Shown: positions 36,555 through 64,000 of the stretch, in pieces
How positions within the stretch are numbered: the stretch's first letter is position 1
Layout of the letters: the number at the start of each line of letters is the position of its first letter
Assembly (NCBI GenBank): GCA_014860585.1
Contig: JACZJL010000107.1
Span: 62,001-126,000 of the forward strand
Length of the DNA stretch: 64,000 nucleotides
Direction of reading: 5' to 3'
Source of the DNA: Bacteroidales bacterium
GTDB taxonomy: Bacteria; Bacteroidota; Bacteroidia; Bacteroidales; 4484-276
Position numbers and translations under genes: made by a program
The notes under the pieces: generated by a model
Databases searched by the model: none
What the model saw: only the letters and a program-made list of their open reading frames with translations
What the model was told of the DNA's origin: nothing

Positions 36555-36627
36555 CTCTCCGTAGCTCAGGTGGTAGAGCAAATGACTCTTAATCATTGGG
36601 CCGAAGGTTCGAATCCTTCCGGGGAGA
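36555..36627 (+). tRNA. tRNA-Lys(CTT)
   Basis: A full cloverleaf of 73 bases. The acceptor CTCTCCG pairs with CGGGGAG (one G-U), with discriminator A. D-stem GCTC/GAGC. Anticodon stem AATGA/TCATT with loop CTCTTAA, anticodon CTT (Lys, codon AAG). T-arm GAAGG-TTCGAAT-CCTTC. The 3' CCA is not encoded. A terminator follows directly. Confidence 0.96.
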
Positions 36628-36630
36628 CAT

Positions 36631-36677: not shown

Positions 36678-39600
36678 TTAATTCTTTATCACCTTCTCTA
36701 TGAATGTCTGATGTTCGTTGATCAACCGGATAAAATAAACTCCATCGGGTTGATTACTAAAATCAAAACTGGTTTTATTATCAATCACACCTGAAAAGAC
36801 CACTTGTCCCTGAACATTGGTAATCAATAAATTAAACAAACCATCAGTATTAATATTGATTTGTTCGGAAGTTGGGTTTGGAGAGACAGTGATATTGTCA
36901 TCAATCTCACTGATACCTGTTGCCCCGACTTTCAGACCGTTAATAATGGACAGTCCGTTTTCGGCATAAAGTCCATCGGCATTTGCAGCCTGTTTGCTGT
37001 ATCCTGCAATGGCATCCAGAATTTGCCCGTTGCGGAAAATCCTGACAGTCATCATTTCGCCCTCTACCATTCCCTCTATTGTTTCAGTTGTGATGTCGTT
37101 CCCATAAACAACTATTGGAAGCACTGACTCATTTCCGCTAAATTGATTCATGCCGACACACCGTTCGTTTGAATTAAATATGCCAACAAAATCGCCAGGG
37201 ACAAGGTTTTGCAGGGCAGCGCCGGTAACCGACAGGATATGTTGTGAACCCGTTGCGGTAACATCATTCCAGGATGTTGAATTGACAAATTGTGGCACGT
37301 TGTTCAATGTCATGGCTTTAGGCAAAATTAAACCGAAGTCAATCATTACCTGGGCATTTACTTTTGCTATGTAGGCCACGCCCGGATAAAGCGTATTTAA
37401 GGACAGACCTGATGTGCCTGGTAAAATTCCTCCTCCCGGCCAATAAATCAGCCCCCCTGCTATGTCGAACATAAATTCGATGGCATTGCCAAGCGGCACA
37501 ATGAATTCGTTCACATCAACCGGGTTTTGGCTAAGCACCGGGATCAGGTGTGTGCCCGGTTCAAGGGTGATGGTTTTGTCTTCAGGCTCGTAACCCGGGA
37601 AAACAAAAAATGCAGACCCGTCAAGTTTGGCTTTATAGCCAGTGTAGGTACTCCATTCGCCAATTGAGTTGATGTTTTGACCAGGCCAGTATATACCCTC
37701 ATTGCTTAAAATGATGATCAGGTTATTTAAAGCGGGAGCAAACAAATCCTCCATGCTTATTCTGCCGGGAATCAGGTTGCTTGATACTCCGCTCCAGCCT
37801 GAAGGAATGATCAGTGGTAATGTTGGATTCTCGTTACATCCGGACCCCGGTGTACAATAAATTCCCTGTCCAGCTGCATTCACGGCTGCAAGTTGTGTTG
37901 AAAACGTCCAGTTGGCCGGATCGTTGTTATCAAGAGAGGGGTCACAAAATTCAAGTGACGGACCCCGGCCTGCTGGTTCGGTTGGCCATAGATTTGCATC
38001 ATCGTAAAGAACGTATGCACGCACATTGTTGCTGTTATCACTCAATTCGACAGCCTCACCTCCATTTCCCAAACCACCGCTTGTCCATTGCAACGCATCA
38101 ATCCCAAAAGTGTTTTGGAAGGCTGATGCATTAACGCAAACCACCAGGAATTCACCGGGATGGAAATCAACATCAGGGAAGGTATACACCACACCCTTTG
38201 ATATTTTCCAGTTAAGGAGATTCACAATACCAAGTCCATTGTTGTAGAATTCGATAAACTCAAGTGTATCAGCCCCTGATTCTGGAGGGTTGTACATGAT
38301 CTCACTGATGATGATATCAATTGGAGGAACAATAGTAAAAGTCTCATTACTGGCATCCCAGGGATCATCCTGACCGACGGCCTGAATGATGATGATGTAT
38401 TCTCCGAATTCCTGTGTTACATTCCATGTGAAACTGCCATCCTCAACCGGCACAATACCTAACAAAACACCTTCTTTTATGAATGGAGTATGCAGAATAA
38501 CTTCCACATCGCCATCGAAATTGGAGTAAAACCATTCGATCTCATATTCTGTCCCCCATTCTATCTGTTCTCCCCCATTTGGAGAAATCACAGTGATTGT
38601 TGGTGGAATCTCAATGTCATCAAGACTTCTGCTTGTAAAATAAAACCCATCAACCCTGCCATTTGGAATACCAACAAGATTACACAGTGAGGTGGGAATC
38701 GGTGTACCAATATAATCCACATCATAAAAAGTAGTTCTGAAATTACCGGAAGATTTACTCTCATCAGTGATTTCATACACCTGACCATTGGCAAACAAAC
38801 TACCTCCATCTGAAAAAGTAACACCCTCAATTTTAATCAGTTCTGATTCATACTCTTCGAAATTACCAAACAACTGGCCAATGGTGACCACCTCAGGATC
38901 AATCACATTACCTGAGGAGGTTGGTGCGCCCGGATCGCCTACCGGGTTGAACTGCAGCATATTTCCAAAATAGGTAAATGTTCCAACAATACCTGTGATA
39001 CCGTCACCAATAAGATAATCGGTTGTAATAACACCCGGCACATCATCAATAAGGATTGCTGCTGTTGCATCCTGGATAAATTTTTGATTTCTGAAGGTTT
39101 GTTTGAAAGTTAAGACTACCTCACCTGTAACTTTAAAATAGTCTGTCTTGGTTAAATATGCAGCTCTTAATTCGGCGAGGTTTGCCACTTCGGTTACCGG
39201 TGGAAAAGTATAGGTAGCTTCTGCGATGGAGCTTGGGTCAAGATCGGGAGCGTAAGCAATAGCTTTGACGGTTGTAGTTGCATCAATGGGGATGGGAACC
39301 GTATATTCGGTGGATGAATTATCGGGATCAGATCCGTCCAATGTGTAATAAATGGTAGCGCCTTCGGTTGTACAAGTAATCTCAAGATTAAAAGGATAGA
39401 AATATTCTCCTGAAAACTGGGAAAATACCGGTGTCGCCGCTGCAGTAACCTCTCCAAAGGCAGTCCATGAAATGTTGTCAATTACTACCTGGCGGTTTGT
39501 GGTGGCTGTTCCAGTCAATTTAATTCTGATATCGAAATTACCTTGAACATTGATGTCGTTCACTTCAAAAGTATGAATAGTTGCATCGGCGCCTGTAAAA

Positions 39601-39959
39601 CCTCCAAATTCAATTGACGTTCCCTTTAACTCACCGTTGATATAAACTTCGAGCTGCCTGACAGAACTGCCCGTAAATGCCTTCCTCATGTTCATGGAAA
39701 AACTTCCTATCCCGCCTGGTATAGCTGAAGCTTCCAATTTACTGTCGCTTGCCCTTCTAAGCATTAATCCTTCACCATCAACGGGATAACCACCATCATC
39801 ACGGGAATGAAAATAATTCCAGACAATTCCTCCATTTCCAGAGAAGGAACCGTCAGCATAACTGGTTGTTGCAGTTGAATTATCAAAGGTTTCTAAACCT
39901 TGACCATAAGTAAAAGCAAAGATTACTGTGAAACTTAATACTGTAATTAACCTTTTCAT
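36678..39959 (-). CDS. Secreted multidomain protein with lamin-tail, OB-like and GW/YWP modules and T9SS tail
   Basis: 1093 residues from MKRLITVLSFTVIFAFTYGQ, a signal peptide. A longer frame to 40079 would read through a strong terminator hairpin and lacks a signal at its front. Order: N-terminal beta-sandwich; chitobiase-C-like domain (ATIYYTLDGSDPDNSSTEY, about 173-255); OB-fold-like module (FRNQKFIQDATAAILIDD, about 256-450); Kre9-like domain (SPNGGEQIEWGTEYEIEWF); lamin-tail domain (IISEIMYNPPESGADTLEFI, about 550-697); GW/YWP double module (about 716-876); a second shared module with GIFNSNERCVGMNQFSG and VVYGNDITTE; and a T9SS type-A tail (ITVSPNPTSEQ...GVYFIRLI). No catalytic domain is recognisable, so it is probably a surface adhesin, binding or scaffold protein. 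Confidence 0.85.
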   Translation of the reverse strand: MKRLITVLSFTVIFAFTYGQGLETFDNSTATTSYADGSFSGNGGIVWNYFHSRDDGGYPVDGEGLMLRRASDSKLEASAIPGGIGSFSMNMRKAFTGSSVRQLEVYINGELKGTSIEFGGFTGADATIHTFEVNDINVQGNFDIRIKLTGTATTNRQVVIDNISWTAFGEVTAAATPVFSQFSGEYFYPFNLEITCTTEGATIYYTLDGSDPDNSSTEYTVPIPIDATTTVKAIAYAPDLDPSSIAEATYTFPPVTEVANLAELRAAYLTKTDYFKVTGEVVLTFKQTFRNQKFIQDATAAILIDDVPGVITTDYLIGDGITGIVGTFTYFGNMLQFNPVGDPGAPTSSGNVIDPEVVTIGQLFGNFEEYESELIKIEGVTFSDGGSLFANGQVYEITDESKSSGNFRTTFYDVDYIGTPIPTSLCNLVGIPNGRVDGFYFTSRSLDDIEIPPTITVISPNGGEQIEWGTEYEIEWFYSNFDGDVEVILHTPFIKEGVLLGIVPVEDGSFTWNVTQEFGEYIIIIQAVGQDDPWDASNETFTIVPPIDIIISEIMYNPPESGADTLEFIEFYNNGLGIVNLLNWKISKGVVYTFPDVDFHPGEFLVVCVNASAFQNTFGIDALQWTSGGLGNGGEAVELSDNSNNVRAYVLYDDANLWPTEPAGRGPSLEFCDPSLDNNDPANWTFSTQLAAVNAAGQGIYCTPGSGCNENPTLPLIIPSGWSGVSSNLIPGRISMEDLFAPALNNLIIILSNEGIYWPGQNINSIGEWSTYTGYKAKLDGSAFFVFPGYEPEDKTITLEPGTHLIPVLSQNPVDVNEFIVPLGNAIEFMFDIAGGLIYWPGGGILPGTSGLSLNTLYPGVAYIAKVNAQVMIDFGLILPKAMTLNNVPQFVNSTSWNDVTATGSQHILSVTGAALQNLVPGDFVGIFNSNERCVGMNQFSGNESVLPIVVYGNDITTETIEGMVEGEMMTVRIFRNGQILDAIAGYSKQAANADGLYAENGLSIINGLKVGATGISEIDDNITVSPNPTSEQININTDGLFNLLITNVQGQVVFSGVIDNKTSFDFSNQPDGVYFIRLINEHQTFIEKVIKN

Positions 39960-39993
39960 AAATATTGATTTTATGTGTAAAATTTGATTTTTG

Positions 39994-40033
39994 AAAAAAG
40001 CTGTCCCCTGAGTTCTTGGTCTCAGGGGACAGC
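39994..40033 (-). terminator. Strong terminator between two secreted-protein genes
   Basis: GCTGTCCCCTGAG (40000-40012) and its exact complement (40021-40033) form a 13-bp stem with an 8-base loop, followed on the minus strand by six T. It ends the transcript of the gene at 40042 nine bases after that gene's stop. Confidence 0.85.
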
Positions 40034-40041
40034 ATGATTTG

Positions 40042-43000
40042 TTACTTACTACATTCCGGGAAAACGATCGGGATTGCACCGCTTACCTTGATAAAATAAG
40101 CTTTACCCGGGACAAAATTAACCAGTGTGTACAATCCGCCATCAGGCCAGTAAACCAGGTTGGTTCCCAGTTCCTGTACATAGATAATTTCGGGAATTCC
40201 ACCTAACAAGGCAGCAACCCCAACCTCACATTCACTCAAAACCGGCAACATGTTCCAGCCAGTGTTAAGGTTTACGGTTTTGTTTGTCACAAGTGTACCA
40301 TGAATGACATGGTAGCGCAGTGCTTCGGTTCTCAGCTGGTAACCCACGTTATTGTTCCAGTTACCAATGGTATTGATATTATAGAACGGAAAATAGATCT
40401 GGTTGAAGTTTTGCATAATGGTCAAATCATCAACAATCCGTTCCATCACATCAGCTACATTTGGCTGATCAGGAACAATATACGTTGAAATTCCCCCCCA
40501 ACCTGCCGGGATTAAGAAACTCTGTGCAGGGGTAGGGAAATTGGGTGCTCCGGGAGTTCCATAAACAGGAATTCCATCTGCATTTATAAGGGCAAATGCG
40601 GTTTCCGGCGCCCAGTTTTCTGCAAGTTCATTATCTGAAGCAAGATCGATAAGTGAGAGCGACGGGCCAAACCCATCAGGGGCTATTGGCCAGGGTGATG
40701 CATCATCAAAAAGCACAAAATCAATCACCACGTTGGCTGCGTTTTTCAATTCTATGGCTTCACCACCGTTTGACAAACCTCCGCTTGTCCATTGCAAAGC
40801 GGCCACGCTAAAAGCATTGAATACTGCATTTGCATTGTAAGCAACTACCAGATAAGCCCCGGGAAGGAGTTCATAGTCAGGGAGGATCATATCGATTCCC
40901 GCCGAAAAATACCATCCTGCCAAGTTGTGTGCAATATTATCGGCATTGTATAATTCGAGGTATTCCAATGTATCAGTCCCCCCTTCCGGTGAGTTGTACA
41001 TGATTTCGCTGATTACCACATTTGGTGTTGGAGGAGGCAAAATGATCGAAAATACGGCATCGCTTTCGTCGGCAGGTATCCCGGTCAATTCATCTGAGAT
41101 TTTGATCAAATAGTTATCGCCTGCATCTTGTGTGACCTCCCACGCAAATGTACCAAAGGTGCTGGTAACCGTACCCAACGTAATGGCTGACCCCGCTTTT
41201 TCAGCAGTCATCAGTTCGATCAGGATTGTGCCTTCATAATTTGCACTGCTCCAGGTAATGTTGTAGGTTGTTCCCTGTTGAATGTTTTCACCGCCATTTG
41301 GGGTAAGTAAAGTAAGCTCCGGAACAATTACCGAAACGATGGAGAAAACGCCATCGCTTTCATCCACCGGCTGGCCATCTTCCATATCCGAAACACGGAT
41401 TTTGTAGTTGGTACCAACCGTCTGGTCAGCAGCGATTTCCCACGGCCATGTTCCATTGATTGCAGGAATGTTTTCAGCTAAAACAACATCTTCGCGGGTT
41501 GCGGTGATGAGTTCAATTTTTAGTAATCCGTTGAAGTTTACCCTTGTCCAGGTAACATCAGTGGTTTCTCCCTGGATGAATGTTTCACCGCCATTAGGCG
41601 CTGTAACGGTTAACCCCTGAAATCCGAAAGCAGAATTTTGAATTCCAGGGGTTCCAAAATTCTGTGGACTGGCAATCCAGTTTTCGGGCAGATTGTTGTC
41701 GAGATCAGGATCTATAAGTTCTAATGAAGATCCCAGCCCGTTTGCTCCAAGGGGCCATGGTGAAGAAGATGAATAGGCAACAACATCCATCAATGTACCG
41801 TCTGAAGCCTTAAGCTCTATGGTTTCACCCGTATTGTTTAAAGCCCCGCTATTCCATTTAACAACATTGCTAATTCCATAAAAAGTGCCTACAGAATCAG
41901 CATTTACCGCCAAAACAAGGTATTGCCCCTGAAGTAGGATTGTCCCTTCAGCAAAAGTGTGAACAATGGCCGTACTAATTGTCCATCCCGTTAAATCAAC
42001 ATCGAAATTACCGTTGTTAAACAGTTCAAGATATTCATAGTATGAATCACTTAAAAATGGATTGCTATTGGAAGGGTTGTACATGATCTCATTGATTACA
42101 ATCTTGGGAACCGGCAATTCAGCTACTATATTGAAGAAGTTGTCGCTTTCATCCATTGGATCACCACCATTAACCCCCTGAATCCTGATTTTGTAATTGT
42201 TACCTACTTGTTGTGCAGCCGGCACCTGCCATTCGAAGAACCCTGAGTTTGGAATACTTGTAGCCAAAACAAGGGTATAAAGTGGCGGGCGTACAAGGGT
42301 GATTTTTACATTACCGCTAAAATCCTGAGAAGTCCATGTTATGTTCTGTGTACTCCCTTGTTCCCAATATTCATATCCATTTGGCGAAACTACGGTGATG
42401 GTGGGAAATAGGACTGATGGCTGAATGTCGCTGGCATAGCGGCTCGTAACATAGTTGGCATTGCTTACCGTATTGGGAATGACAACAAGATCGGTTGGCA
42501 CAGATGGAATCGTGTTCCCAAGGTAGTTGGCATCCAGGAATTCCGTTCTGAACGTTGCTGCCGCATCCGTGTTGTCCGAAATCGGGTAATTCGTTCCATA
42601 GGCAAAGGTTGCACCACCATTGGCAAAAGTGACATCTTCAATTTTGATCAGTTCTGACTGATAGTTCATAAAGTTGGCATTTAACTGGGCAATCGTGATC
42701 ACTTCAGGCACGATGACATTGTTAACAGAGGTTGGCGCCCCGGGATCAGCATTCACTGCAAGGCGCAACATGCCATTGTGATTGACAAGGATCCCTGACA
42801 ATCCGGTGATTCCGTCACCAGGTGAATAGGCTGTGGTAATGATTCCTGTGAAATCATCAATCAAAATGGCAGCGGTGGCATCCTGTACAAATTTCTGGTT
42901 GCGCCATGCTTGCTGGTAAGTGAGCACTGCTTCCCCCGACAAAATGTATTCCTGCCCGAGTTGTCCGGCTCTAAGCTGAGCAATCGTATTGACCGTGATC

Positions 43001-44550
43001 GGGCCGGTGGGAATAAACTCAAGGTCATCAAGAGAGCGGCTGGTGATGAAGTATCCTTCTGATCTTGCATTTGGAATGCCAACGATATTTCCGTTACCCC
43101 CTGGGATTTGTGTTCCAATATAATTTACATCGTAAAATGTCGTCCGGAAATCTCCGGTAGCTTCACTGGCATCACTTATCTCATAGACTATTCCATTGGC
43201 AAAAGTTGCGCCGGCATCCGCAAAAGAGGCATTGACAATCTTAATCACCCTGGATTCATAGGCAGCAAAGTTGCTGAACAATCCACCTATTGTAACCACC
43301 TGCGGAACAATTGCGTTACCTGTTGAAGTTGCTGGTCCGGGATCCTGTGAAGGAGTGAACTGGAACATATTCCCGAAAACATTCAGCGTACCATAAATGC
43401 CTGTAATCCCATCACCAACATTATAACTGGTTGTAATCACACCTGATAGGTCGTCAATCAAAATACCGGCAGTAGCATCCTGAATGTATTTCTGGTTGCG
43501 GAAAGTTTGAGAAAAAGTCAAAACAGCTTCTCCAGTTAAATGATATAACCCTGAAAGAGCTGAATTTTTCAGTGTTGCGATATTTGCTACTTCAATCGGG
43601 AATGTATAGAATGCCACAGCAATTGAGCTTGGATCAAGTCCTTCAGCGTAAGCTCTTGCTTTTAAGACAGTGGTTATATTGATGGGAACGGGTATCGTGT
43701 AAAGATTGCTGTTTTCATCCGGATCAGTACCATCTGTGGTGTAGTAAATCGTGGCATCCGGCGTTGTAGTTGAAATAGAAATATTTTGAGAAGAATAATA
43801 GATGCCGCCTGGTGGAGAAAATGTAGGGGCTGCAACCGAAGGTGGGCCGCCGGAAGCAGTTACGGCATCATCCCAATTATTGGCAATTCTGATCCCATCA
43901 ACAATTACACGTTCTGAGGCGTTGTATTGTCTAAGAGCAACACTGCCAACAGAATATGAAGAGTTCTCAGTAAAAGTAAAGTCAGCAGTTAAAGGTTCGC
44001 TCTCTGGAAATGAATTAAAAACAAATAAACTGGAAACCTTCGAAGCAATATCAAATTTTGTTACAACCAGTGTTGGGACTCCTGCTGTCATGGGCACATA
44101 AGAAGCGGGTGCAGATGAACCACTAAGCCCTAAACCGTCACCGGTGGCATTAACCCAAACCCTTGTAAAAAATGTTGTTCCAATTGTTGATTGTCCAAGA
44201 TGTAAAAAATATCCAGGACTATTTGAGCTTTCGGTTTGAATAATGAAAGCAGTATAAACAACTCCTGCGACCTGGGAAGGAAATGTTCTGTGCACATCCT
44301 CACCATTATTATCTAATAATGCTGCTCCGCCAATGTTAGAGCCTGCATAGCCATCAAAAAACAAACCGTCAGATACAGTAGGAGGCTGATTTCCTGCGCC
44401 ACTATGAGCAGTCCAGCCATTCGCAGTTAACAGAGAACCAATGGGATAGTCAAAATTTTCTTCAAATATCTGCCCCCAAACAGTTGACATTTGAAAAATA
44501 AGAACAAACAGAACTGCAAAGATTTTTAATAGTGTAAATAGCTTTTTCAT
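40042..44550 (-). CDS. Large secreted modular protein ending in the GW/YWP module, no T9SS type-A tail
   Basis: 1502 residues from MKKLFTLLKIFAVLFVLIFQ, a signal peptide; an ATG two codons upstream is also possible. Order: N-terminal jelly-roll-like region (NFDYPIGSLLTANGWTAHSG, to about 240); chitobiase-C-like domain; two OB-like modules (about 317-510 and 513-710); Kre9-like domain; lamin-tail domain (INEIMYNPSNSNPF); two further Kre9-like domains (APNGGETFIQGETTDVTW, TPNGGENIQQGTTYNITW); a second lamin-tail domain (ISEIMYNSPEGGTDTLEYLE); and the GW/YWP double module as the extreme C-terminus (about 1348-1502), ending IVFPECSK. The usual YPNP...GxYxxxL tail is absent, so either the last module itself directs sorting or another route is used. 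Lamin-tail plus OB modules often accompany secreted nucleases, but no nuclease domain is visible. Confidence 0.85.
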   Translation of the reverse strand: MKKLFTLLKIFAVLFVLIFQMSTVWGQIFEENFDYPIGSLLTANGWTAHSGAGNQPPTVSDGLFFDGYAGSNIGGAALLDNNGEDVHRTFPSQVAGVVYTAFIIQTESSNSPGYFLHLGQSTIGTTFFTRVWVNATGDGLGLSGSSAPASYVPMTAGVPTLVVTKFDIASKVSSLFVFNSFPESEPLTADFTFTENSSYSVGSVALRQYNASERVIVDGIRIANNWDDAVTASGGPPSVAAPTFSPPGGIYYSSQNISISTTTPDATIYYTTDGTDPDENSNLYTIPVPINITTVLKARAYAEGLDPSSIAVAFYTFPIEVANIATLKNSALSGLYHLTGEAVLTFSQTFRNQKYIQDATAGILIDDLSGVITTSYNVGDGITGIYGTLNVFGNMFQFTPSQDPGPATSTGNAIVPQVVTIGGLFSNFAAYESRVIKIVNASFADAGATFANGIVYEISDASEATGDFRTTFYDVNYIGTQIPGGNGNIVGIPNARSEGYFITSRSLDDLEFIPTGPITVNTIAQLRAGQLGQEYILSGEAVLTYQQAWRNQKFVQDATAAILIDDFTGIITTAYSPGDGITGLSGILVNHNGMLRLAVNADPGAPTSVNNVIVPEVITIAQLNANFMNYQSELIKIEDVTFANGGATFAYGTNYPISDNTDAAATFRTEFLDANYLGNTIPSVPTDLVVIPNTVSNANYVTSRYASDIQPSVLFPTITVVSPNGYEYWEQGSTQNITWTSQDFSGNVKITLVRPPLYTLVLATSIPNSGFFEWQVPAAQQVGNNYKIRIQGVNGGDPMDESDNFFNIVAELPVPKIVINEIMYNPSNSNPFLSDSYYEYLELFNNGNFDVDLTGWTISTAIVHTFAEGTILLQGQYLVLAVNADSVGTFYGISNVVKWNSGALNNTGETIELKASDGTLMDVVAYSSSSPWPLGANGLGSSLELIDPDLDNNLPENWIASPQNFGTPGIQNSAFGFQGLTVTAPNGGETFIQGETTDVTWTRVNFNGLLKIELITATREDVVLAENIPAINGTWPWEIAADQTVGTNYKIRVSDMEDGQPVDESDGVFSIVSVIVPELTLLTPNGGENIQQGTTYNITWSSANYEGTILIELMTAEKAGSAITLGTVTSTFGTFAWEVTQDAGDNYLIKISDELTGIPADESDAVFSIILPPPTPNVVISEIMYNSPEGGTDTLEYLELYNADNIAHNLAGWYFSAGIDMILPDYELLPGAYLVVAYNANAVFNAFSVAALQWTSGGLSNGGEAIELKNAANVVIDFVLFDDASPWPIAPDGFGPSLSLIDLASDNELAENWAPETAFALINADGIPVYGTPGAPNFPTPAQSFLIPAGWGGISTYIVPDQPNVADVMERIVDDLTIMQNFNQIYFPFYNINTIGNWNNNVGYQLRTEALRYHVIHGTLVTNKTVNLNTGWNMLPVLSECEVGVAALLGGIPEIIYVQELGTNLVYWPDGGLYTLVNFVPGKAYFIKVSGAIPIVFPECSK

Positions 44551-44593
44551 AAACATTAGTTTTTTAATAGATGAATAATTTACTTTAATAAAG

Positions 44594-44631
44594 AAGCAGA
44601 GATCTCATTTTAAGAAATGGGACCTCTGCTT
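44594..44631 (-). terminator. Hairpin between two secreted-protein genes
   Basis: AAGCAGAG-A-TCTCATTT pairs with AAATGGGA-C-CTCTGCTT, 16 pairs with one internal mismatch and one G-U. On the minus strand it begins 9 bases after the stop of the gene at 44641. What follows is AT-rich rather than a pure T-run, so it may terminate weakly or protect the message end. Confidence 0.55.
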
Positions 44632-44640
44632 ACCAATGAT

Positions 44641-47526
44641 TTAATTGATGATGATGCGGTTGGTTGAAAACATACCCGAACTCAGGTCGGTGATTTTGAC
44701 CAGGTAAACCCCCTTTTTCAGATGAGTCAGGTCAATCGGGGTCTGATCACCCGAGAGTGGCTGTTTGTAAACCAATTGCCCGGTGAGTGAGAACACTTCG
44801 AGATGATCAGCCTGCCGGCTGAGTTGAATGTTGAATCTTCCGGTACCGGGATTGGGATAAATGGTGGTTTGAAAATCCTGACCCGGTGAAGAGATGCTGT
44901 TGCTTCCTTCACCATTGACAAGCACATTGTCAATCTCCCAGGTGGCTGAGTTTTGGGATGTCGAGTAATAAACAAAGGCAACATATGCCGTAGCGCTGCC
45001 GTAACTGCTGATATCAATTGCGCCAGAGCTTGTCCACTGCCAGAAAGGATCTCCGGAAGGCCATGCAGCCTGTTCGGTAAGGTCAGTCCAGGTGGCATCG
45101 CCCGGGTTTCCGGAGCCGGCGTAATCAGTCGAAATTTTCACATTTAATGCAGGCCCGGTATAACCAAGAGCAGAGAAGAAAGTGAGTTTTTCGTTGGTTG
45201 TATTGCTAAGATTCAATGCGGGTGATATCAGCCAGTCTTCATTTTCGTTTGACTGTGAATTGGCAAAACCGCTCATTTTTGCACAGGCTGTATTGTCAAC
45301 ACCAAACGTGTTGTTCCTGTCCCACAGTTCAGCACCTTTAACGCTGATTGTAGTCCATCCTTCCCAGTCGGTATTGAAAGTCGAGTTGATTACTGTTACC
45401 AATTCAACTGTAGCTGTGGTTGCTTCTGCAAATGGAGGTTCGCCATCCGTTTTGTAATCAATATACTGACCGTCGTTGGTGTAGGGGAAAATTTTAAAAT
45501 AATAGGTGGTTTGTTGTTCGAGGCCATTAAAAGAATATTCCTGGATACCCTGCTGAATGTTCATTGCTCCCACGCCGTCAGCCATATTCGGATCATCAGC
45601 AACGGGAGTACCATCAGCCGGAGATTGGAAGTTGTTCTGACTGCTCCCAAGAATCAGATAACCTGCGGGCAAAACTTCTCCGGTGGCATCTGTCCAGGTA
45701 AGTTTAATGTTTGATCCGGTGGCTGCTGCTGCAAATGCAGTCGGGTAGTTGGTAGGCTCCGGAATTATGGTCAGAATAATGGTGGCTTCGGCTGAAGGGG
45801 GATTCCCGTCATTCTTGTAATCAATGGCCGAACCGGCGCCTGTGTAGGAGAATATTTTGAAATAATAGGTCACATTCACCGGCAAATCGGCAAAAACGTA
45901 TTCTTCAGCACCAAAAGCAATGTTCATGGCGCCCAAACCATCACTCAATACCGGGTCGTTAGACACAGGAACTCCGTCAACGGGTGCAATGATGTTATCT
46001 TCATCGCTGGCCAGAATAACGTAGCCCGTTGGTAACACCTCGCCCGTGGCATCTTCCCAGGTGAGTTTAATCGTTGTTAAGGTCGTTGTCGCTTCAAATG
46101 CAGTTGGGTAATTGGTTGGTTCTCCGTAAAACCATTCAAGATCACCAAGCGATCTGCTCGTAATATAATTACCCTCAGTTCTTGAGTTTAGGATACCTAC
46201 AATATTTCCTGCACCTGATGGAATCAATGTTCCGATATAATCCACATCGTAAAAAGTAGTTCTGAATTCTGCGCTGGCTTTGCTATTGTCGCTGATCGGA
46301 TAAAGAAGCCCGTTTTCAAATGCCGCACCTGCATCAGCAAATGTGGCGTCGGCAATTTTAACCAGTTGGGATTCGTAATCCTCAAAGTTAGCTGTCATTT
46401 CTGTGATAGTGATCTCAACCGGATCAATCTGATTTCCCGTTGAGGTTGCCTCACCCGGATCAAACGCCGGGACAAACTGCAGCATATTGCCAAATTCGGT
46501 CACCGTGCCAATCATTCCTGTGATACCGTCGCCAAGGTTATAAGCAGTTGTAATTTTCCCTGAAAGATCATCAATTAATATGGCTCCGTTGGCATCCTGA
46601 ATGTATTTCTGATTTCTGAACGTCTGCTGGAAAGTCAGTACCACCTCACCGTTGATTTTGAAATAGTCTGTTGATGGGAAAGCAGCCCTGAGTTCTCCAA
46701 GATTGGCTACCTGGATCGGTGTAATAATGGTATATGTGCCCTGGGCAATGATACTTGGGTCAAGGCCGGTGGCATAAGCACGGGCCTTTAAAGTTGTAGT
46801 AGCGGAAATATTGATTGGGTCGGTATAAGGTGTTGAAGATTGTGAAGGTTCACTGCCATCGGTAGTATAAAAAATAGAAGCATCGGGTGTAGTACAGCTG
46901 ATGGTCACATCAATATCGCCGAAAAACTGACCTGCAGGAGGTGAAAATACCGGTGTGGCAACATTTTGAACTCCGGTATTATCGGTAATCACGATGTCGT
47001 CGATATTCAACCTGCGATTTACCGTACCGTCTTCAGTTGCCCTTTTGATCCTGACGCGAACGTTGCCGTCAACATTAACATTTTCCGAAAAAGTCTGGAC
47101 ATCATCCGACGCGGGTGCAGTAAAAGCATTTCCTATCTGTGTCCATGTTGAACCATTGTTGGTGCTGTATTCTATCTTCCAGTCTACCTGTGTATCAGTT
47201 CCGTACCGTCGATAGAGAAATGTGATGTTACCAATACCGTTGGATTTGTTTTGTAGCATGGTCATAGAGGATGTACCGTAACCTCTCATTCTTGCGGCAC
47301 GCTCACCGTTGATGAATTCAGGAAGACCGGCAGCAGTTGTAGTGATTAAAGCGTCTGTCATGTCCCAGTCCAATCCGCTGAGATTTACAGTCGCCGAGGC
47401 ATAAGAAGGTTTCAATTCCCCTTCGCCTTCAAAATTTACAACATACTGCGCATTGACTATAAGGGCATAAAAAATAAACCCTACAATCAATGTGCTTTTT
47501 CTTAACACGCTGAAAATGTTTTTCAT
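44641..47526 (-). CDS. Secreted multidomain protein with OB-like, two FN3-like and MAM-like modules, T9SS tail
   Basis: 961 residues from MKNIFSVLRKSTLIVGFIFY, a signal peptide ending near VNAQ. Order: N-terminal beta-sandwich (VVNFEGEGELKPSYASATVN ... NRRLNIDDIVITD); chitobiase-C-like domain (ASIFYTTDGSEPSQSSTPY); OB-like module (FRNQKYIQDANGAILIDD, about 270-470); two fibronectin-III-like domains that are near copies (PTNYPTAF... LTW.DATGEVLP.GY); a MAM/choice-of-anchor-J-like beta-sandwich (DWEGWTTISVKGAELWDRNN ... ATWEIDNVLV); and a T9SS type-A tail (TIYPNPGTGRFNIQLSRQAD...GVYLVKI). It starts 12 bases after the stop of the closely similar upstream gene, so the two are co-transcribed. The function is probably surface binding; no enzymatic motif is seen. 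Confidence 0.87.
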   Translation of the reverse strand: MKNIFSVLRKSTLIVGFIFYALIVNAQYVVNFEGEGELKPSYASATVNLSGLDWDMTDALITTTAAGLPEFINGERAARMRGYGTSSMTMLQNKSNGIGNITFLYRRYGTDTQVDWKIEYSTNNGSTWTQIGNAFTAPASDDVQTFSENVNVDGNVRVRIKRATEDGTVNRRLNIDDIVITDNTGVQNVATPVFSPPAGQFFGDIDVTISCTTPDASIFYTTDGSEPSQSSTPYTDPINISATTTLKARAYATGLDPSIIAQGTYTIITPIQVANLGELRAAFPSTDYFKINGEVVLTFQQTFRNQKYIQDANGAILIDDLSGKITTAYNLGDGITGMIGTVTEFGNMLQFVPAFDPGEATSTGNQIDPVEITITEMTANFEDYESQLVKIADATFADAGAAFENGLLYPISDNSKASAEFRTTFYDVDYIGTLIPSGAGNIVGILNSRTEGNYITSRSLGDLEWFYGEPTNYPTAFEATTTLTTIKLTWEDATGEVLPTGYVILASDEDNIIAPVDGVPVSNDPVLSDGLGAMNIAFGAEEYVFADLPVNVTYYFKIFSYTGAGSAIDYKNDGNPPSAEATIILTIIPEPTNYPTAFAAAATGSNIKLTWTDATGEVLPAGYLILGSSQNNFQSPADGTPVADDPNMADGVGAMNIQQGIQEYSFNGLEQQTTYYFKIFPYTNDGQYIDYKTDGEPPFAEATTATVELVTVINSTFNTDWEGWTTISVKGAELWDRNNTFGVDNTACAKMSGFANSQSNENEDWLISPALNLSNTTNEKLTFFSALGYTGPALNVKISTDYAGSGNPGDATWTDLTEQAAWPSGDPFWQWTSSGAIDISSYGSATAYVAFVYYSTSQNSATWEIDNVLVNGEGSNSISSPGQDFQTTIYPNPGTGRFNIQLSRQADHLEVFSLTGQLVYKQPLSGDQTPIDLTHLKKGVYLVKITDLSSGMFSTNRIIIN

Positions 47527-47538
47527 AGATTAAAATAT

Positions 47539-50040
47539 TTAGTTGATTATTATTTTTCTCATTAAAGTTAAACCTGAAGTCGAATCAGAAAGCCTGATCA
47601 TGTAAAATCCTTTGTTGAGATGCGTGAGATCCAAAAGTTGTATGCTGTCGCTTAAAACCTGTTCATGTACCAATTGACCGGTAATTGAGTGTACCTCGAG
47701 CTGATCAAAGTCATGCTGCAAATGAATATAGAATAACCCATTCCCAGGATTAGGATAGATGCTAATGCTATTTTCTTTGGTCGAACCGGATATTCCAACA
47801 GTCAGTTCACCGCTTATCATGATGTTATCCACCTCCCACGTAGCCGATTCCTCATCGGTGGAATAATACACAAATGCGACATAAAAATCATCGCTGTTGA
47901 GAAAAACATCAATGTACCCGGAGTGTGTCCATTCAAAAAACGGATTCCCTGTTGGCCAGGTAACCTGGTCAGAAAAGTCGGTCCAGGTGAAATTATTCGG
48001 ATTCCCTGATCCATCATAATCAATTGAAACCTTTACCTGAAGGGCAGGTCCTGAATACCCCACTGCAGCATAAAATGAGAGCAGTTTTGTTTCTATTTCC
48101 TGTGATTCGATTAAAGGAGAAATAAGCCAGTTCTCATTTACATAGGATGTACCGCTTACAAATCCGCTGATTTTGGCACAGGGTGTATTGTTGATGCCGA
48201 AAGTATTGTCCCTGTCCCAGTCCTGTTCGCCGGTAACATTATACTGTGTCCAGCCTTCCCAGTCCTCATTAAAAGTTGTAAACAGCACCATAACCATCTG
48301 ATAAGTAGTCGCATTAGCTGCAGGAGGATTGCCATCTGTCTTGTAATCAATAACTGCTCCTGTACCGGTGTAGGGGAATATTTTGAAATAATAAGTCTCC
48401 TCAACAGGCAGATCAGTAAACATGTATTGTTGGGCGCCAAATGAAATATTCATCGCTGCAGATCCGTCCGTGAGATCAGGATCGTTGGCAACCGGAACGC
48501 CGTCTGCCGGGAGGGTAATGGCAGGGCTGTCGCTGGCAAGAAGCAGGTAGGAGGTGGGTAAAATATTTCCTGTTGCATCAGTCCAGGTAAGGGCAATATT
48601 CTGACCATACGCAGTCGCGCCGAAATCAGCCGGGTAATTGCTTGGCTCACCCAATGCCCATTCAAAATCTTCGAGAAACCGCGAAGTAATATAATCACCA
48701 TCGGCTCTTGAATTCAAAATTCCAATGATGTTTCCGGCGCCTGAAGGAATAGTTGTTCCGATGTAATTCACATCATAAAAGGTTGTTCTGAAATTTCCTG
48801 ATGCTTTACTGTTGTCGCTGATTTCGTAAACCGTACCGTTTGCAAATGCACTGCCTGCATCAGCGAAAGTAGCGCCGATAATTTTCACCAATTCAGATTC
48901 ATAATTTTCAAAATTGGTCAACATTTGGTTTATGGTAATCACCTGAGGCACAACCTGGTTTCCTGTGGATGTGGCAGCACCCGGATCCAAAGCAGGGGTG
49001 AACTGAAGCATGTTCCCAAACTCAGCTATGGTTCCGGTTATCCCTGTGATTCCGTCACCTATGTTATAGTTTGTATTGATTTTACCAGAAACATCATCAA
49101 TGAGAATGGCTGCTGATGCATCCTGAATGTACTTCTGGTTTCTGAAGGTTTGCTTGAAAGTAAGCACGACCTCGCCGGTAAGCTGAAAATAGTTCGTCGA
49201 GGGAAATGCTGCCCTGAGCTGAGCAAGATTTGCAACTTGTGCAGGGACAACAATGGTATATGTTCCCTGGGCAATGTTACTTGGATCAAGACCTGCAGCA
49301 TAAGCACGGGCTTTCAGTAAGGTTGTAGATGTGATGTTAATTGGAATGGTATAAGGTGTTGACGACTGGGTTGGCTCGCTGCCGTCGGTTGTGTAAAATA
49401 TTGAAGCATCAGGTGTGGCGCAACTGATGGCCACCGTTACAGGACCGAAAAACTGACCGGCCGGAGGTGAAAATGAAGGAGTAGCTGTTGTGTTTCCACC
49501 GCCAAAATTTGTAATAAGGATGTCGTCAATATTCAGTCTGCGATTTGATGTTCCTTCTTCGGTGGCGCGTTTGATGCGGATACGGATATTTCCATTAACG
49601 TTTACATCTTCCGAAAAAAATTGAACATCGTCGGATGCCGGTGCTGTAAAAGCATTGCCGATTTGGGCCCATACCGTACCGTCAAGGCTATACTCAACTT
49701 TCCAGTCTACCTGAGCATCTGTTCCGTATCGACGGTAATAGAAGCTGACATTACCAATGCCGTTTTCTTTGTCTTCAAGCATGGTCATCACTGAGGTGCC
49801 GTAACCGCGCAACCTTGCCGAGCGAATTCCGTTTTTCCAATCAGCATCCAAAGTTCCGATCAGTGCTTCGGTCATATTCCAGGTCAAACCGCTAAGTATC
49901 ACGTCACCAGAGGCGTAGGCAGTTTTCACCTCTCCCTCGCCTTCAAAATTTACTAAGTATTGTGCATCTGCTGTTGAAGCGAAAAACAACAGTCCGATAA
50001 CCAGCACAACTGGTTTTAAAGCAATAAAAATCTTTTTCAT
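47539..50040 (-). CDS. Secreted multidomain protein, paralogue of its neighbour, with T9SS tail
   Basis: 833 residues from MKKIFIALKPVVLVIGLLFF, a signal peptide ending near ADAQ; an ATG five codons upstream is less likely. It has the same plan as the gene downstream, minus one FN3-like unit: N-terminal sandwich (LVNFEGEGEVKTAYASGDVI), chitobiase-C-like, OB-like (FRNQKYIQDASAAILIDD), one FN3-like, MAM/choice-of-anchor-J-like (DWEGWTQYNVTGEQDWDRDN) and T9SS tail (SIYPNPGNGLFYIHL...GFYMIRL). The near identity of many blocks shows a tandem duplication followed by gain or loss of an FN3 unit. It is first in a two-gene transcription unit. Confidence 0.87.
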   Translation of the reverse strand: MKKIFIALKPVVLVIGLLFFASTADAQYLVNFEGEGEVKTAYASGDVILSGLTWNMTEALIGTLDADWKNGIRSARLRGYGTSVMTMLEDKENGIGNVSFYYRRYGTDAQVDWKVEYSLDGTVWAQIGNAFTAPASDDVQFFSEDVNVNGNIRIRIKRATEEGTSNRRLNIDDILITNFGGGNTTATPSFSPPAGQFFGPVTVAISCATPDASIFYTTDGSEPTQSSTPYTIPINITSTTLLKARAYAAGLDPSNIAQGTYTIVVPAQVANLAQLRAAFPSTNYFQLTGEVVLTFKQTFRNQKYIQDASAAILIDDVSGKINTNYNIGDGITGITGTIAEFGNMLQFTPALDPGAATSTGNQVVPQVITINQMLTNFENYESELVKIIGATFADAGSAFANGTVYEISDNSKASGNFRTTFYDVNYIGTTIPSGAGNIIGILNSRADGDYITSRFLEDFEWALGEPSNYPADFGATAYGQNIALTWTDATGNILPTSYLLLASDSPAITLPADGVPVANDPDLTDGSAAMNISFGAQQYMFTDLPVEETYYFKIFPYTGTGAVIDYKTDGNPPAANATTYQMVMVLFTTFNEDWEGWTQYNVTGEQDWDRDNTFGINNTPCAKISGFVSGTSYVNENWLISPLIESQEIETKLLSFYAAVGYSGPALQVKVSIDYDGSGNPNNFTWTDFSDQVTWPTGNPFFEWTHSGYIDVFLNSDDFYVAFVYYSTDEESATWEVDNIMISGELTVGISGSTKENSISIYPNPGNGLFYIHLQHDFDQLEVHSITGQLVHEQVLSDSIQLLDLTHLNKGFYMIRLSDSTSGLTLMRKIIIN

Positions 50041-50344
50041 GTAATTAATTGTCAAATTGTTAATATTATAAAATTGTAAATATCATGAGATTCCTGATTC
50101 AATTTCCGTCTGCAAAAGTCCTGAAAATAATCCAGACTATTTTTCAATTACAATTAAATTTAGGTTAAAAATTAAGAGGCTAAAAGTAAGGAAAAATGTT
50201 CAAACAGCAAGTAGCTTGTTGGTAAGTTTTGGGGGTCGAATGAGTTGGGATAACCACTAGTAAATTGTATATGAAGAGATTAAATAAAAAAATCCCGATT
50301 GAATCAATCATCGGGATTTTTTTTTCGAATATTTACGGGATTAC
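50041..50344. other. Intergenic region between dnaK and the secreted-protein cluster
   Basis: About 300 AT-rich bases. They hold the dnaK terminator (50286-50325) and must hold the promoter of the minus-strand gene starting at 50040. No exact TAnnTTTG was found for it. No gene is seen. Confidence 0.45.
50286..50325 (-). terminator. dnaK terminator
   Basis: AAAAAATCCCGAT and ATCGGGATTTTTT form a long stem with a 10-base loop. On the minus strand it ends in a run of seven T, 20 bases after the dnaK stop. Confidence 0.8.
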
Positions 50345-53901: not shown

Positions 53902-56900
53902 ATGAGTAACAATAAGTTGGAAAGCATTATTCGGGAGTTTAAGCTTACAACCATTGCCCTGAAAAACAGAAATACAGTATTTCTGCTCACCTTTCTTATT
54001 ACCCTCTTTGGTATTATTTCCTACCGCTCGTTGCCTAAAGAACTTTTCCCGGATATTGTTATCCCTACGATTATGGTTAAAACGATCTATCCCGGAAATG
54101 CACCCATTGACATCGAAAACCTGATTACCCGGCCATTGGAAAATGAGATCAACACCATAAACGGGATCAAGAAACTCTCCTCCTCATCCACACAGGACAA
54201 TTCAGATATTTTCGTCGAATTTCAAACCGATGTTGACATTAAAGCCGCACTGCAGGATGTTAAGGATGCCGTTGACCGGGTGAAAGGGGACTTACCGGGC
54301 GATCTGCCTGTTGACCCGATCATTCTTGATATAGATTTTTCAGAATTCCCAATCATCAATATCAACCTGTCCGGTAATTTTTCGCTTAACGAACTGAAAC
54401 GTTTTGCAGATTTCCTGGAAGAAGAAATTGAAGCCGTTCCCGAAATTTCCAAAGTTGAGATTACCGGCATTGACGAGCGTGAAATTCAAATCAATGTTAA
54501 TCCCATGCTCCTCGATGCTTTTGAGTTAAGTTTTCAGGATGTCGAAACGGCCATCATGCAGGAAAATGTTTCAATTGCCGGAGGCTCGGTGATGTTTGCT
54601 GACAGTTCGCGATGGGCTATCCGTACAATGGGTGAATTTACTGATGTGCGGGAAATTGAAGATGTGATATTGAAGCAGGAGGGTGGAAACATTGTTTATC
54701 TGCGCGATTTGGCCACCGTAGAAGACACCTATGCTTACCCGATGAGCTTTGCCCGTCTTGATAACCAGCCGGTTGTTTCGTTACAGGTAGTGAAAAAAGC
54801 CGGTGAAAACCTGCTTTCGGCTACCGACAAAATTTTTATTGTCCTTGACGAAGCCAGAAAATCAGGCGCTCTGCCCGACGACCTGAATATTTCCATCACC
54901 AATGACCAATCAGAAGAAATACGCAACCAACTCACCAACCTCGAAAACAGCGTGATCATGGCTGTGATCCTGGTGATCCTTATCCTCTATTTTTTCCTTG
55001 GATTGAAAAATGCACTGTTCGTGGGGATTGCTATTCCGGTCAGCTTGCTCATGTCGTTCATGATTTTTGCCATTGCTGACATACAGATCAATATGATCGT
55101 TTTATTCTCCCTCATACTCGCCCTCGGCTTACTCGTAGATAATGCCATTGTGGCCGTGGATAACATTTACCGGTATGTCGAAAGAGGGTACCCTGCTTTC
55201 GAGGCTGCCAGGAGGGCCATCGGCGAGATTGCCTGGCCAATCATCACCTCAACGGCTACAACGCTTGCAGCATTTTTACCCCTTGTTTTCTGGACTGGAA
55301 TTACGGGTGAGTTTATGAAGTTCCTGCCGATTACCCTCATCATTGTCCTGACCTCATCCTTGTTTGTCGCGTTGGTAATTGTTCCGGTATTTTCCGGAAC
55401 CTTTTTCAAAGATAAATCCCTTACAACCAGCATTGAGCTTCATCCCGACAAACGGCGTAAGAAAACCATCAACAGGTTGGTTATTATTGGATTACTTGCC
55501 CTGGCGGGAGGATTATTCCATCTTTCCAAAGCAACACTCATTGGTAATATTTTTTTATTGGTCGCCTTTTTAATCGCAATTGGATATTTCATTTTCCGTA
55601 ACCTTGAGATTCTTTTCCAGGAAAAAATACTTCCGTTCAATGAACGAATCTATGCAAGCACGCTGCGTTATGCACTAAAGGGGAAAAGGCCTTATTGGTT
55701 TATCCTTGGAACAGTGGCGTTTCTGATCATCTCATTAAGCTTTTATGTGGTCAGAAGCCCCAATGTGTTATTTTTTCCTGAAAGTGATCCTAATTTTATC
55801 AATATTCTGGTGGAACTTCCAATTGGAACCGACATCAAAAAAACCGATGAAAAATTGAAGGAAATTGAACGGCATGTTGAGGAAATCATCAAACCCTTCC
55901 GGCATATTGTTAAATCTGTGTTGACCACGGTTGGCCGTGGTGCTGTTGGCGAGATGGAGATGGCCGCCGGTGATACGCCACACAGAGGACGAATTACAGT
56001 CACTTTTGTGAAATTTGAAGACCGAAATGGATTCAATACGAACGAAATCTTGGCCGAATTGAGTAATCATTTGATTGGGAAATATCCTGGAATTGACTTT
56101 AACATTGTGCAAAACATGACAGGCCCTCCTACAGGCCCTCCTGTAAATATCGAAATCAGCGGAAGAAATTTCGAACGGCTTGTTGCGATTTCCAACGATA
56201 TTATTAATAAAATTGAAGTCTCGGGAATTGAAGGACTTGAAGGGTTGAAAATGGACCTTGATGTGGATAAACCGGAAATCATTGTTCACATCGACAGGGA
56301 TATGGCCAGAAGGTTTGGTGTGTCAACTTATTCAGTAGCCAATACCATCCGCACTGCGTTGTTCGGAAAAGAAGTATCCGATTTCAAAATCGGAGAGGAA
56401 GAATTTCCCATTCAACTTCGCCTGCAGGAAGATTACCGCAATAATCTTGCAAGCCTGATGAACCAGCGAATCACATTCAGGAGCCAGAGTACGGGTAAGA
56501 TTATGCAGGTGCCGATTTCGGCTGTGGCAAATGTGGAATACAGCAAAACCTACGGCGCCGTTAATCGAATCGGGTTAAAAAGGGTTGTGACATTGACATC
56601 CAATGTACTGCCAGGTTACAATGCCACAGCGTTAAACCTTGAGCTCAGCGAACTGCTTAAAAACTACCAGATGCCCGAAGGTTACGCATATGCTTTCACC
56701 GGTGAACAGCAGGAACAACAGGAATCCATGGATTTTTTGATAATTGCTATGTTTATTGCCGTTTCACTCATCGGCCTGATCCTCGTTTCACAGTTCAATT
56801 CTGTCATTAAACCCCTTATCATTATCGGGAGCGTGGTATTTTCAACTGCCGGTGTGTTTTTCGGGCTGGCACTATTCAACATGGAGTTTATTGTGATTAT

Positions 56901-57366
56901 GACAGGTATAGGAATCGTCAGCCTTGCAGGGGTTGTAGTAAATAATGCGATTGTGCTGATTGACTACACTGATTATCTTCAAAAACAAAAAAAAGCCGAA
57001 CAAGACCTGGCTGAAGAAGATTTTCTTCAGCCCGACGATTCGATTTCCAGTATTCAACAAGCCGGTGAAACACGTTTCCGCCCGGTTATACTCACGGCGA
57101 TCACTACAGTGCTCGGGCTGATCCCACTCGCTGTCGGGCTCAACATTGACTTCATTTCACTGATGACAACACTTAATCCGCGTATCTATTTTGGAGGCGA
57201 CAATGCCGCGTTCTGGAGTCCCATGTCGTGGACGATCATCTTTGGACTGCTGGTAGCAACCTTCCTCACACTGGTCGTCGTTCCGTGCATGTACCAGGTT
57301 ATCCAGTCCACACAACGAAAAATTAGTTTTTGGAGAAAACCCGAAGCAAATGTTGTTCTCAAATAG
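53902..57366 (+). CDS. RND-family efflux pump, inner-membrane transporter (AcrB/HAE-like)
   Basis: 1154 residues, 12 predicted transmembrane segments in two repeats with large periplasmic loops, as in RND pumps. The start ALKNRNTVFLLTFLITLFGI and PGNAPIDIENLITRPLENEI are typical. The TM4 acidic pair of AcrB is here Asp-Asn (GLLVDNAIVAVDNIYRYVE), and the TM10 Lys is Asn (GVVVNNAIVLIDYTDYL). The proton relay therefore differs from AcrB but is like other broad RND permeases with a single Asp. There is an extra hydrophobic stretch at about 520-575 before the second half. It works with the adaptor immediately upstream. Substrates are unknown. Confidence 0.93.
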   Translation: MSNNKLESIIREFKLTTIALKNRNTVFLLTFLITLFGIISYRSLPKELFPDIVIPTIMVKTIYPGNAPIDIENLITRPLENEINTINGIKKLSSSSTQDNSDIFVEFQTDVDIKAALQDVKDAVDRVKGDLPGDLPVDPIILDIDFSEFPIININLSGNFSLNELKRFADFLEEEIEAVPEISKVEITGIDEREIQINVNPMLLDAFELSFQDVETAIMQENVSIAGGSVMFADSSRWAIRTMGEFTDVREIEDVILKQEGGNIVYLRDLATVEDTYAYPMSFARLDNQPVVSLQVVKKAGENLLSATDKIFIVLDEARKSGALPDDLNISITNDQSEEIRNQLTNLENSVIMAVILVILILYFFLGLKNALFVGIAIPVSLLMSFMIFAIADIQINMIVLFSLILALGLLVDNAIVAVDNIYRYVERGYPAFEAARRAIGEIAWPIITSTATTLAAFLPLVFWTGITGEFMKFLPITLIIVLTSSLFVALVIVPVFSGTFFKDKSLTTSIELHPDKRRKKTINRLVIIGLLALAGGLFHLSKATLIGNIFLLVAFLIAIGYFIFRNLEILFQEKILPFNERIYASTLRYALKGKRPYWFILGTVAFLIISLSFYVVRSPNVLFFPESDPNFINILVELPIGTDIKKTDEKLKEIERHVEEIIKPFRHIVKSVLTTVGRGAVGEMEMAAGDTPHRGRITVTFVKFEDRNGFNTNEILAELSNHLIGKYPGIDFNIVQNMTGPPTGPPVNIEISGRNFERLVAISNDIINKIEVSGIEGLEGLKMDLDVDKPEIIVHIDRDMARRFGVSTYSVANTIRTALFGKEVSDFKIGEEEFPIQLRLQEDYRNNLASLMNQRITFRSQSTGKIMQVPISAVANVEYSKTYGAVNRIGLKRVVTLTSNVLPGYNATALNLELSELLKNYQMPEGYAYAFTGEQQEQQESMDFLIIAMFIAVSLIGLILVSQFNSVIKPLIIIGSVVFSTAGVFFGLALFNMEFIVIMTGIGIVSLAGVVVNNAIVLIDYTDYLQKQKKAEQDLAEEDFLQPDDSISSIQQAGETRFRPVILTAITTVLGLIPLAVGLNIDFISLMTTLNPRIYFGGDNAAFWSPMSWTIIFGLLVATFLTLVVVPCMYQVIQSTQRKISFWRKPEANVVLK

Positions 57367-63216: not shown

Positions 63217-64000
63217 CTATTCATCACATTCGGGAAGCGGCACCTCAAGCAAATCCATGCCTGATTTATAAACATAATATGATTTGCCCGGTTCCAGGTA
63301 TTCGAGTGAATTGATCTGCATGGCAGGCCAGAAAAGTTTGATACCGGAAATCTCTTTAATCATGACGATTTCTGAATACCCTCCAAATACATCTTCAACA
63401 TGTAACGGACAGGATATTTTTACCGGCAGCAACGACCAGCCGGGATTCAGGATTACGGGGTCAACCGGATATTTTAGAAAACCGGTAATGGTTAATAATT
63501 CATCACTGTTCATCTTAACCATATATCCGGTTGATGCGTCCCAGGAACAAAGCGTATTGACATTAGCTCCAGGCCAGTAGGTCCCCTCAAAAGTCATTAC
63601 AATCACCAGTTGATCAATAACCGGTTGAAAAATGGTTGTAATGCTTGGTTCTGAAGGGATTACAAATGAAGAAAAACCGCACCAGCCAGCAGGTAACGAA
63701 AAAACCTGCGTTTTTGGTTCGAGCACCGTAAGAACGCCTGAGGAACTTGTTATTTTCCCGCAGTCATTTTCAAATTCGCAATAATAGGTACCTGCATTTT
63801 CTTTACTAATCTGGTTTAACATCAATGTCGAAGAATTGCTGTTTGGAATGAGCATACCGTTATGAAACCATGTGTAGATCCCCTGTGAGTAGCTTTGGGT
63901 AAAAAATCCCATTTCGAGGTTCTCTCCGGAATAAACAGTCTGGTCAACGATTGTTTCAGAGATTATTTTTGGTTTGTCTGTGAAAAATATCAATTGGTCT
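63217..64000 (-). CDS. C-terminal part of a secreted protein: Ig-like domain plus terminal GW/YWP module
   Basis: The frame is open from the stop at 63217 to the right edge, so only the last 261 residues are visible and the start lies beyond the window. The visible part has an Ig-like domain (YTWFHNGMLIPNSNSSTLML ... AGTYYCEFENDCG) and then the GW/YWP double module: GWCGFSSFVIPSEPSITTIF with TYWPGANVNTL, and GWSLLPVKISCP with LFWPAMQINSLEYLEPGKSY. It ends VPLPECDE. There is no T9SS type-A tail. This layout and ending match the protein at 40042-44550. It is probably secreted; the signal peptide cannot be seen. Confidence 0.75.
   Translation of the reverse strand, partial: DQLIFFTDKPKIISETIVDQTVYSGENLEMGFFTQSYSQGIYTWFHNGMLIPNSNSSTLMLNQISKENAGTYYCEFENDCGKITSSSGVLTVLEPKTQVFSLPAGWCGFSSFVIPSEPSITTIFQPVIDQLVIVMTFEGTYWPGANVNTLCSWDASTGYMVKMNSDELLTITGFLKYPVDPVILNPGWSLLPVKISCPLHVEDVFGGYSEIVMIKEISGIKLFWPAMQINSLEYLEPGKSYYVYKSGMDLLEVPLPECDE

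Follow-up and report, generated by a model that had tools for sequence, protein, structure and literature searches.

A doubled domain of probable T9SS cargo without a family name, found at the extreme C-terminus or ahead of a type A sorting domain in Bacteroidales

The window, i.e. the whole stretch of 64,000 nucleotides that was analysed, encodes four copies of a module of about 160 residues. We consider it an even bet, judging from sequence, that this module is a hitherto undescribed domain, doubled in architecture, which belongs to T9SS cargo and in its terminal form replaces the sorting domain, probably as an export or attachment signal. The module is found mainly in two fixed ARRANGEMENTS: at the extreme C-terminus of the protein (form T), or followed by a second unnamed domain, X, and a type A T9SS C-terminal domain (CTD) (form I). 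Among C25 peptidases, and among paralogous proteins of the window, the terminal module is exchanged for the type A domain and vice versa. In a sample of 395 genomes of the phylum, the module is confined to T9SS genomes and its distribution follows the T9SS core.

A doubled module and its predicted structure

The four copies in the window are homologous: in all pairwise BLASTP comparisons they align over 147–163 residues with 28–40% identity and E values from 2e-21 to 2e-37. Their alignment keeps the blocks GW, YWP, NINTIG.W, GY and PGK.Y, and the invariant positions include GW, S, P, the P of YWP, N, W, GY, G, PV, WP and PG..Y. The first-pass annotation had placed the module at 14972–15444, 37330–37812, 40045–40509 and 63220–63700, and these locations hold, with the refined limits given in Table 1. 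It had also described two similar half-repeats per copy, which was confirmed by treating each half as its own profile (58 copies): the alignment of the half-1 profile with the half-2 profile spans 76 columns and has an hhalign probability of 99.2, an E value of 5.7e-20 and a score of 96.6, against at most 15.6 in 50 column-shuffled controls. By this profile alignment, the two halves, of about 80 residues each, are homologous.

Half 2 often carries a pair of cysteines, in columns 102 and 162. Both are present in 36 copies, one alone in a single copy and neither in 41 (p 1.7e-21, related copies being treated as independent); in two other genera the corresponding numbers are 29, 2 and 21. The pair corresponds in copy M3 to the Cys of LSEC and the Cys of the terminal FPEC. 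The two residues likely form a disulfide that ties down the C-terminal strand, often closing half 2.

An AlphaFold2 model of a terminal copy of the window, built from an alignment of 28 sequences, has a pLDDT of 97.3 and a pTM of 0.90, and displays much the same series of elements (strands, short helix, strands) in either half. The module is predicted to be a mostly beta domain with a doubled architecture, its putative pseudo-twofold resting on the profile homology of the halves together with the repeated order of elements in the model.

The first-pass annotation knew of no named domain with this signature, and the database searches agree. The 58 copies have no significant match in Pfam and NCBIfam, only isolated matches at chance level, and hence no strong match to a described domain; scans of whole proteins and of the four window copies against both collections likewise left the module without a significant match. 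A 58-row profile found nothing among PDB sequences; IsdA and other weak matches obtained with a four-row profile (E 0.24 or worse) vanished with the larger one and were discarded as chance. Foldseek comparison of the model with the PDB returned no match at E<=0.001 (best E 0.22, with TM below 0.25 in the listed rows). The low-scoring VIA-align candidates, HPr, RCK domains, botulinum HA70 and thiamin pyrophosphokinase, were also set aside, as they reach a Z of at most 4.0, below the meaningful level of the tool, and mostly cover single halves. Note that the lack of a confident PDB match to a predicted model does not prove a new fold. The best structural neighbour found comes from an uncultured marine phage and is annotated as a putative hemin binding protein (A0A8D9C8P8, BFVD), with a TM of 0.52 normalised by the module, a Foldseek probability of 1.00 and an E value of 2.8e-3; it differs from the module in sharing only 12% identity and in being itself a predicted model, on the phage side.

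Domain X, the companion of the module, comprises about 135 residues with a GDxIGAF-like signature (GDxIGAF...DGF..GE). It has 80 matches in the genome from which the window is taken, where it mostly adjoins the module directly, after or before it. Like the module, it matches neither Pfam nor PDB sequences; hhalign finds no similarity between X and the module or its halves.

Table 1. Module copies, accompanying domains and host genes in the window
Feature	Position	Strand	Description
Form-I gene	8301–16115	+	Peptidase_S8, P_proprotein, MopE Cu-binding motifs, module, X, type A CTD
Module copy M1	14961–15440	+	Inside 2604-residue subtilase-family protein, form I
Domain X after M1	15480–15866	+	C107:77480-77866
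Type A T9SS C-terminal domain of M1 protein	15894–16109	+	
Form-I gene	36678–39959	-	CHB_HEX, DUF5689, LTD, module, X, type A CTD; the ATG at 39959 is the likely start
Type A T9SS C-terminal domain after X of M2	36681–36887	-	AlphaFold2 model match
Domain X after M2	36906–37298	-	C107:98906-99298
Module copy M2	37320–37820	-	Form I
Form-T gene	40042–44556	-	Signal peptide, CHB_HEX, 2x DUF5689, KNH/LTD repeats, module, stop
Module copy M3	40045–40524	-	C-terminal ~160 residues of protein 40042–44556, form T, nothing after
M3 half 1	40288–40533	-	GW..IST, YFP, NINTIGNW, GY; from half-profile alignment and model elements
M3 half 2	40045–40287	-	GW..LPV, YWP, PGKAY, FPEC; from half-profile alignment
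Paralogue	44641–47526	-	Plain type A CTD, without module
Paralogue	47539–50055	-	Plain type A CTD, without module
Module copy M4	63220–63708	-	C-terminus of ORF entering window at 63999 (759-residue open frame in genome), form T

Two arrangements at the C-terminus

The first-pass annotation had the module forming the C-termini of two secreted proteins. This is exact for the protein encoded at 40042–44556 and for the one cut at 63999, which both have the module as their last part; the other two window proteins continue past the module for about 220 residues, made up of X and a type A T9SS domain. The same dichotomy extends to the whole genome (4.7 Mb, 194 contigs), where a four-row profile of the module gives 87 matches. 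Among the 81 full-length copies, 26 belong to form T, with a tail of 0–17 residues before the stop, and 52 to form I, with 215–241 residues after the module (213–241 in the family); as for the remaining three, two are at contig ends and one is an extra internal copy. The 17-residue tail belongs to G000:C26:4381-5127 (L036), a form-I gene in which a single in-frame TAG separates the module from X; this is either a pseudogene or a sequencing error. Once this gene is removed, form T comprises 25 copies with tails of 0–7 residues.

Two other genera of the family contribute 21 form-T and 31 form-I copies, with no third arrangement among these 52 complete copies. The same two arrangements recur at 30 loci in 21 distant genomes of the phylum, with two exceptions (L127 and L136), in which much other sequence follows the module. 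Divergent copies occur in very large proteins at L073 and L074 (G000:C90), one of which carries a second, internal module near the N-terminus.

Terminal and internal copies are interspersed in the module tree, which requires at least 15 switches between the two forms by parsimony, three of them forced by strongly supported branches. Relative to half 1, half 2 is more conserved in terminal than in internal copies: none of 2000 permutations was as high, and a second data set gave p 0.023, in tests that treat related copies as independent. A form-T gene often adjoins a form-I gene on the same strand, as in the six neighbourhoods L078, L077, L080, L033, L046 and window positions 36678–44556.

Host proteins, exchange with the type A domain and distribution

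Four paralogous secreted proteins built on a CHB_HEX_C_1/DUF5689 core, with 44–70% identity over the shared parts, are encoded in a tandem array at positions 36678–50055 (- strand) of the window. Their C-terminal ends are type A, type A, bare module and module plus X plus type A. For the last of these, the AlphaFold2 model of the C-terminus (protein of copy M2) matches the CTDs of RgpB (7pq4) and NucA (8glk_D). Of the housekeeping surroundings, a tRNA-Lys (ctt) was located by ARAGORN at 36555–36628 (+); elsewhere in the window, a MutS-like protein (5230–7854, -) and an RND efflux pump (53902–57366, +) were recognised by eye.

Substitution of one end for the other is also seen in the C25 (gingipain-family) proteins. 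Five genomes encode 54 such proteins with complete C-termini: 39 have a type A domain at the end, 9 have the module without a type A domain, 1 is of form I and 5 have neither end. Four of these five come from an adjacent C25 gene pair with degenerate CTD-like ends, which stands beside porV in the genome of the window, and the fifth is a fragment. At this locus (L176, G000:C28:10923-18389), a porV-like gene lies beside two adjacent high-scoring C25 genes; the pair recurs in most genomes of the family and is probably porU with a paralogue.

Form-T proteins begin with signal peptides, as judged by inspection, and are devoid of a type A domain. Their hosts comprise C25 peptidases with propeptide, a Porphyromonas-type peptidylarginine deiminase, M14 carboxypeptidases, GH16, nucleases, a hydrolase and multihaem cytochromes; several of these families are textbook T9SS cargo. 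Cohesin is also among the kinds of cargo that bear the module. Hosts are mostly large multidomain proteins, with median lengths of 769 and 1254 residues, and short ones of 365–413 residues exist too. No recurrent non-cargo neighbour, that is, no partner gene, was found beside form-T genes (BLAST of 100 neighbouring ORFs). Three PorV-family proteins score above the cut-off in the genome of the window and are possible candidates for receptors of the module.

All 12 genomes of the family carry the module, with 28 to 115 matches each. At least one module is present in 48 of 295 sampled genomes of the order and in 56 of 395 of the phylum, the copy numbers from these wider searches being lower bounds. 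A Lentimicrobium sp. MAG and further MAGs of Bacteroidales are among the named relatives that bear the module (search with a six-row alignment), and the source of the window is probably a Lentimicrobium-like member of this order. The gene for the T9SS translocon, sprA, is present in 56 of the 56 module-bearing genomes, compared with 303 of the 395 sampled overall (p 9e-8, ignoring phylogeny); since related genomes and paralogues were counted as independent, the p-values for the module overstate significance. The suggestion made from the window alone, an undescribed extracellular domain of T9SS-using bacteria, is supported by the lack of a family match and by the presence of SprA in all module genomes, yet "extracellular domain" proved incomplete as a description: the module is fixed to the C-terminal end of cargo, where it is apparently interchangeable with the type A sorting domain.

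Possible roles of the module

Three classes of T9SS C-terminal signal, types A, B and C, are known (PMC10202324), and our literature search for a named domain or further signal classes returned these three only. The PorV shuttle handles type A and the PorP/SprF shuttles type B (PMC12618676), and signals of both types have been proven by fusion assays (e.g. PMC12618676). Like the type A CTD (TIGR04183 / PF18962), the terminal module is found at the extreme C-terminus of Sec-exported, often proteolytic T9SS cargo: this holds for the 25 form-T copies and is replicated in other genera and in distant families. The two also swap among C25 paralogues. Unlike the type A CTD, the module is about twice as long and has two homologous halves. 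Neither TIGR04183 nor PF18962 matches any copy of the module in scans of whole proteins and of 58 copies, the matches of form-I proteins being due to the separate domain after X, and hhalign comparison of the module with the type A profile gives a probability of 2%, i.e. no detectable homology. The order of elements in the module model, with its short helices, differs from the seven-stranded Ig-like type A fold. There is no CTD structure among the Foldseek and VIA-align matches listed for the module, a listing that does not exclude one.

The type B CTD (TIGR04131 / PF13585, e.g. SprB) is a second, sequence-unrelated signal class, so that more than one class exists (PMC10202324, PMC12618676), and the type C CTD (NF033708, ChiA) sets a precedent for further, rarer classes (PMC10202324). 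Among the 58 copies there is no match to TIGR04131 or PF13585, and none to NF033708. A PorP/SprF-like gene as neighbour is a further mark of type B; the BLAST comparison of the 100 ORFs around form-T genes gave no recurrent non-cargo neighbour. On this sequence record, the terminal module may be a fourth class of T9SS C-terminal signal, standing beside A, B and C with a doubled architecture of its own and without detectable relation to them, although we put this a little below an even chance. The same tentative standing applies to its corollaries, namely that, in one family of Bacteroidales, each genome would use this class for dozens of proteins, that the class would occur thinly across the phylum, and that form-I proteins would be exported by the type A domain behind the module. 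In form T, the module would then take over the role played by the type A domain in sister proteins: the T9SS, or its shuttle or anchor protein, would recognise it at the extreme C-terminus, and this recognition would deliver the cargo to the cell surface, hold it there, or both. In form I, the type A domain would keep this role. Domains of this class are removed following export, which would leave the module and X as the new end of the mature surface protein, where they would probably contact the envelope or surface layer.

The reading of the terminal module as a signal is favoured by the two-position rule, the substitution in C25 peptidases and in the array, the signal peptides and cargo families, the co-occurrence with SprA, the switches between the two forms and the conservation of half 2. 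Three points count against it: as the module has no detectable homology to type A, PorV would have to recognise it through a different interface; form I retains the module despite having a type A signal, although a second, pure export signal would be superfluous there; and no recurrent partner gene stands beside form-T genes. The retention of the module in form I would be better explained by the main rival, a surface-binding domain (for polysaccharide, S-layer or a cell-surface scaffold) by which mature proteins stay at the cell or close to it. Its C-terminal place would then only reflect the need to lie near the membrane end, form T being exported by an unrecognised signal or another route. 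After removal of the type A domain, both forms would end in the module, or the module plus X; the cargo kinds are many (peptidases, GH16, cohesin, nucleases, cytochromes); and secreted beta domains often bind glycans. However, this explanation accounts less well for form T, and we regard it as rather unlikely: nothing obliges a binding domain to lie at most 7 residues from the stop in all form-T proteins, or to avoid a place just before another, unrelated C-terminal domain; carbohydrate-binding Pfam families (CBM) have no significant sequence match on any copy; and the absence of the type A domain exactly where the module is terminal is left without explanation.

A structural function without recognition, in which the module would be a folding or stalk element, a disulfide-closed cap shielding the C-terminus of long surface proteins from proteolysis, agrees with the compact, high-confidence model (pLDDT 97), the co-occurring cysteines and the mostly large multidomain hosts. 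We hold it to be improbable, because short proteins (365–413 residues) bear the module as well, the strong conservation of GW, YWP and NINTIG.W in distant families may point to a recognised surface, and the mutual exclusion with the type A domain would go unexplained. Finally, form T might be an artefact of stops, frameshifts or assembly breaks that cut form-I genes after the module. The TAG-interrupted gene described above is such a case, and the genome is a MAG in 194 contigs. When the 1 kb downstream of form-T genes was inspected in all frames, only 1–2 of the 26 copies looked like truncated form I; G000:C127:164-1270 (L033) has a frame-shifted type A remnant just past the stop, possibly a relic of an I-to-T conversion. 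The other form-T genes show neither X nor an adjacent type A remnant in any frame over this distance, one of them having a separate type A match about 600 bp away. As form T also recurs in other genera and in distant families, including single-contig genomes, an artefactual origin is largely refuted and very improbable.

Even if it proves to be a surface-attachment domain only, the module is among the frequent domains of these genomes and is nameless in Pfam and NCBIfam. The terminal module may, beyond this, be a new kind of T9SS address label. Present-day prediction of T9SS cargo relies on three signal families. Should the terminal module be a signal, about 25 surface proteins encoded by the genome of the window would be cargo missed by current annotation, with similar missed shares in its relatives and gingipain-type peptidases among the missed cargo. 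The paralogues described here would then be a natural set with exchanged signals, in which recognition of unrelated C-terminal domains by the T9SS would be directly testable.
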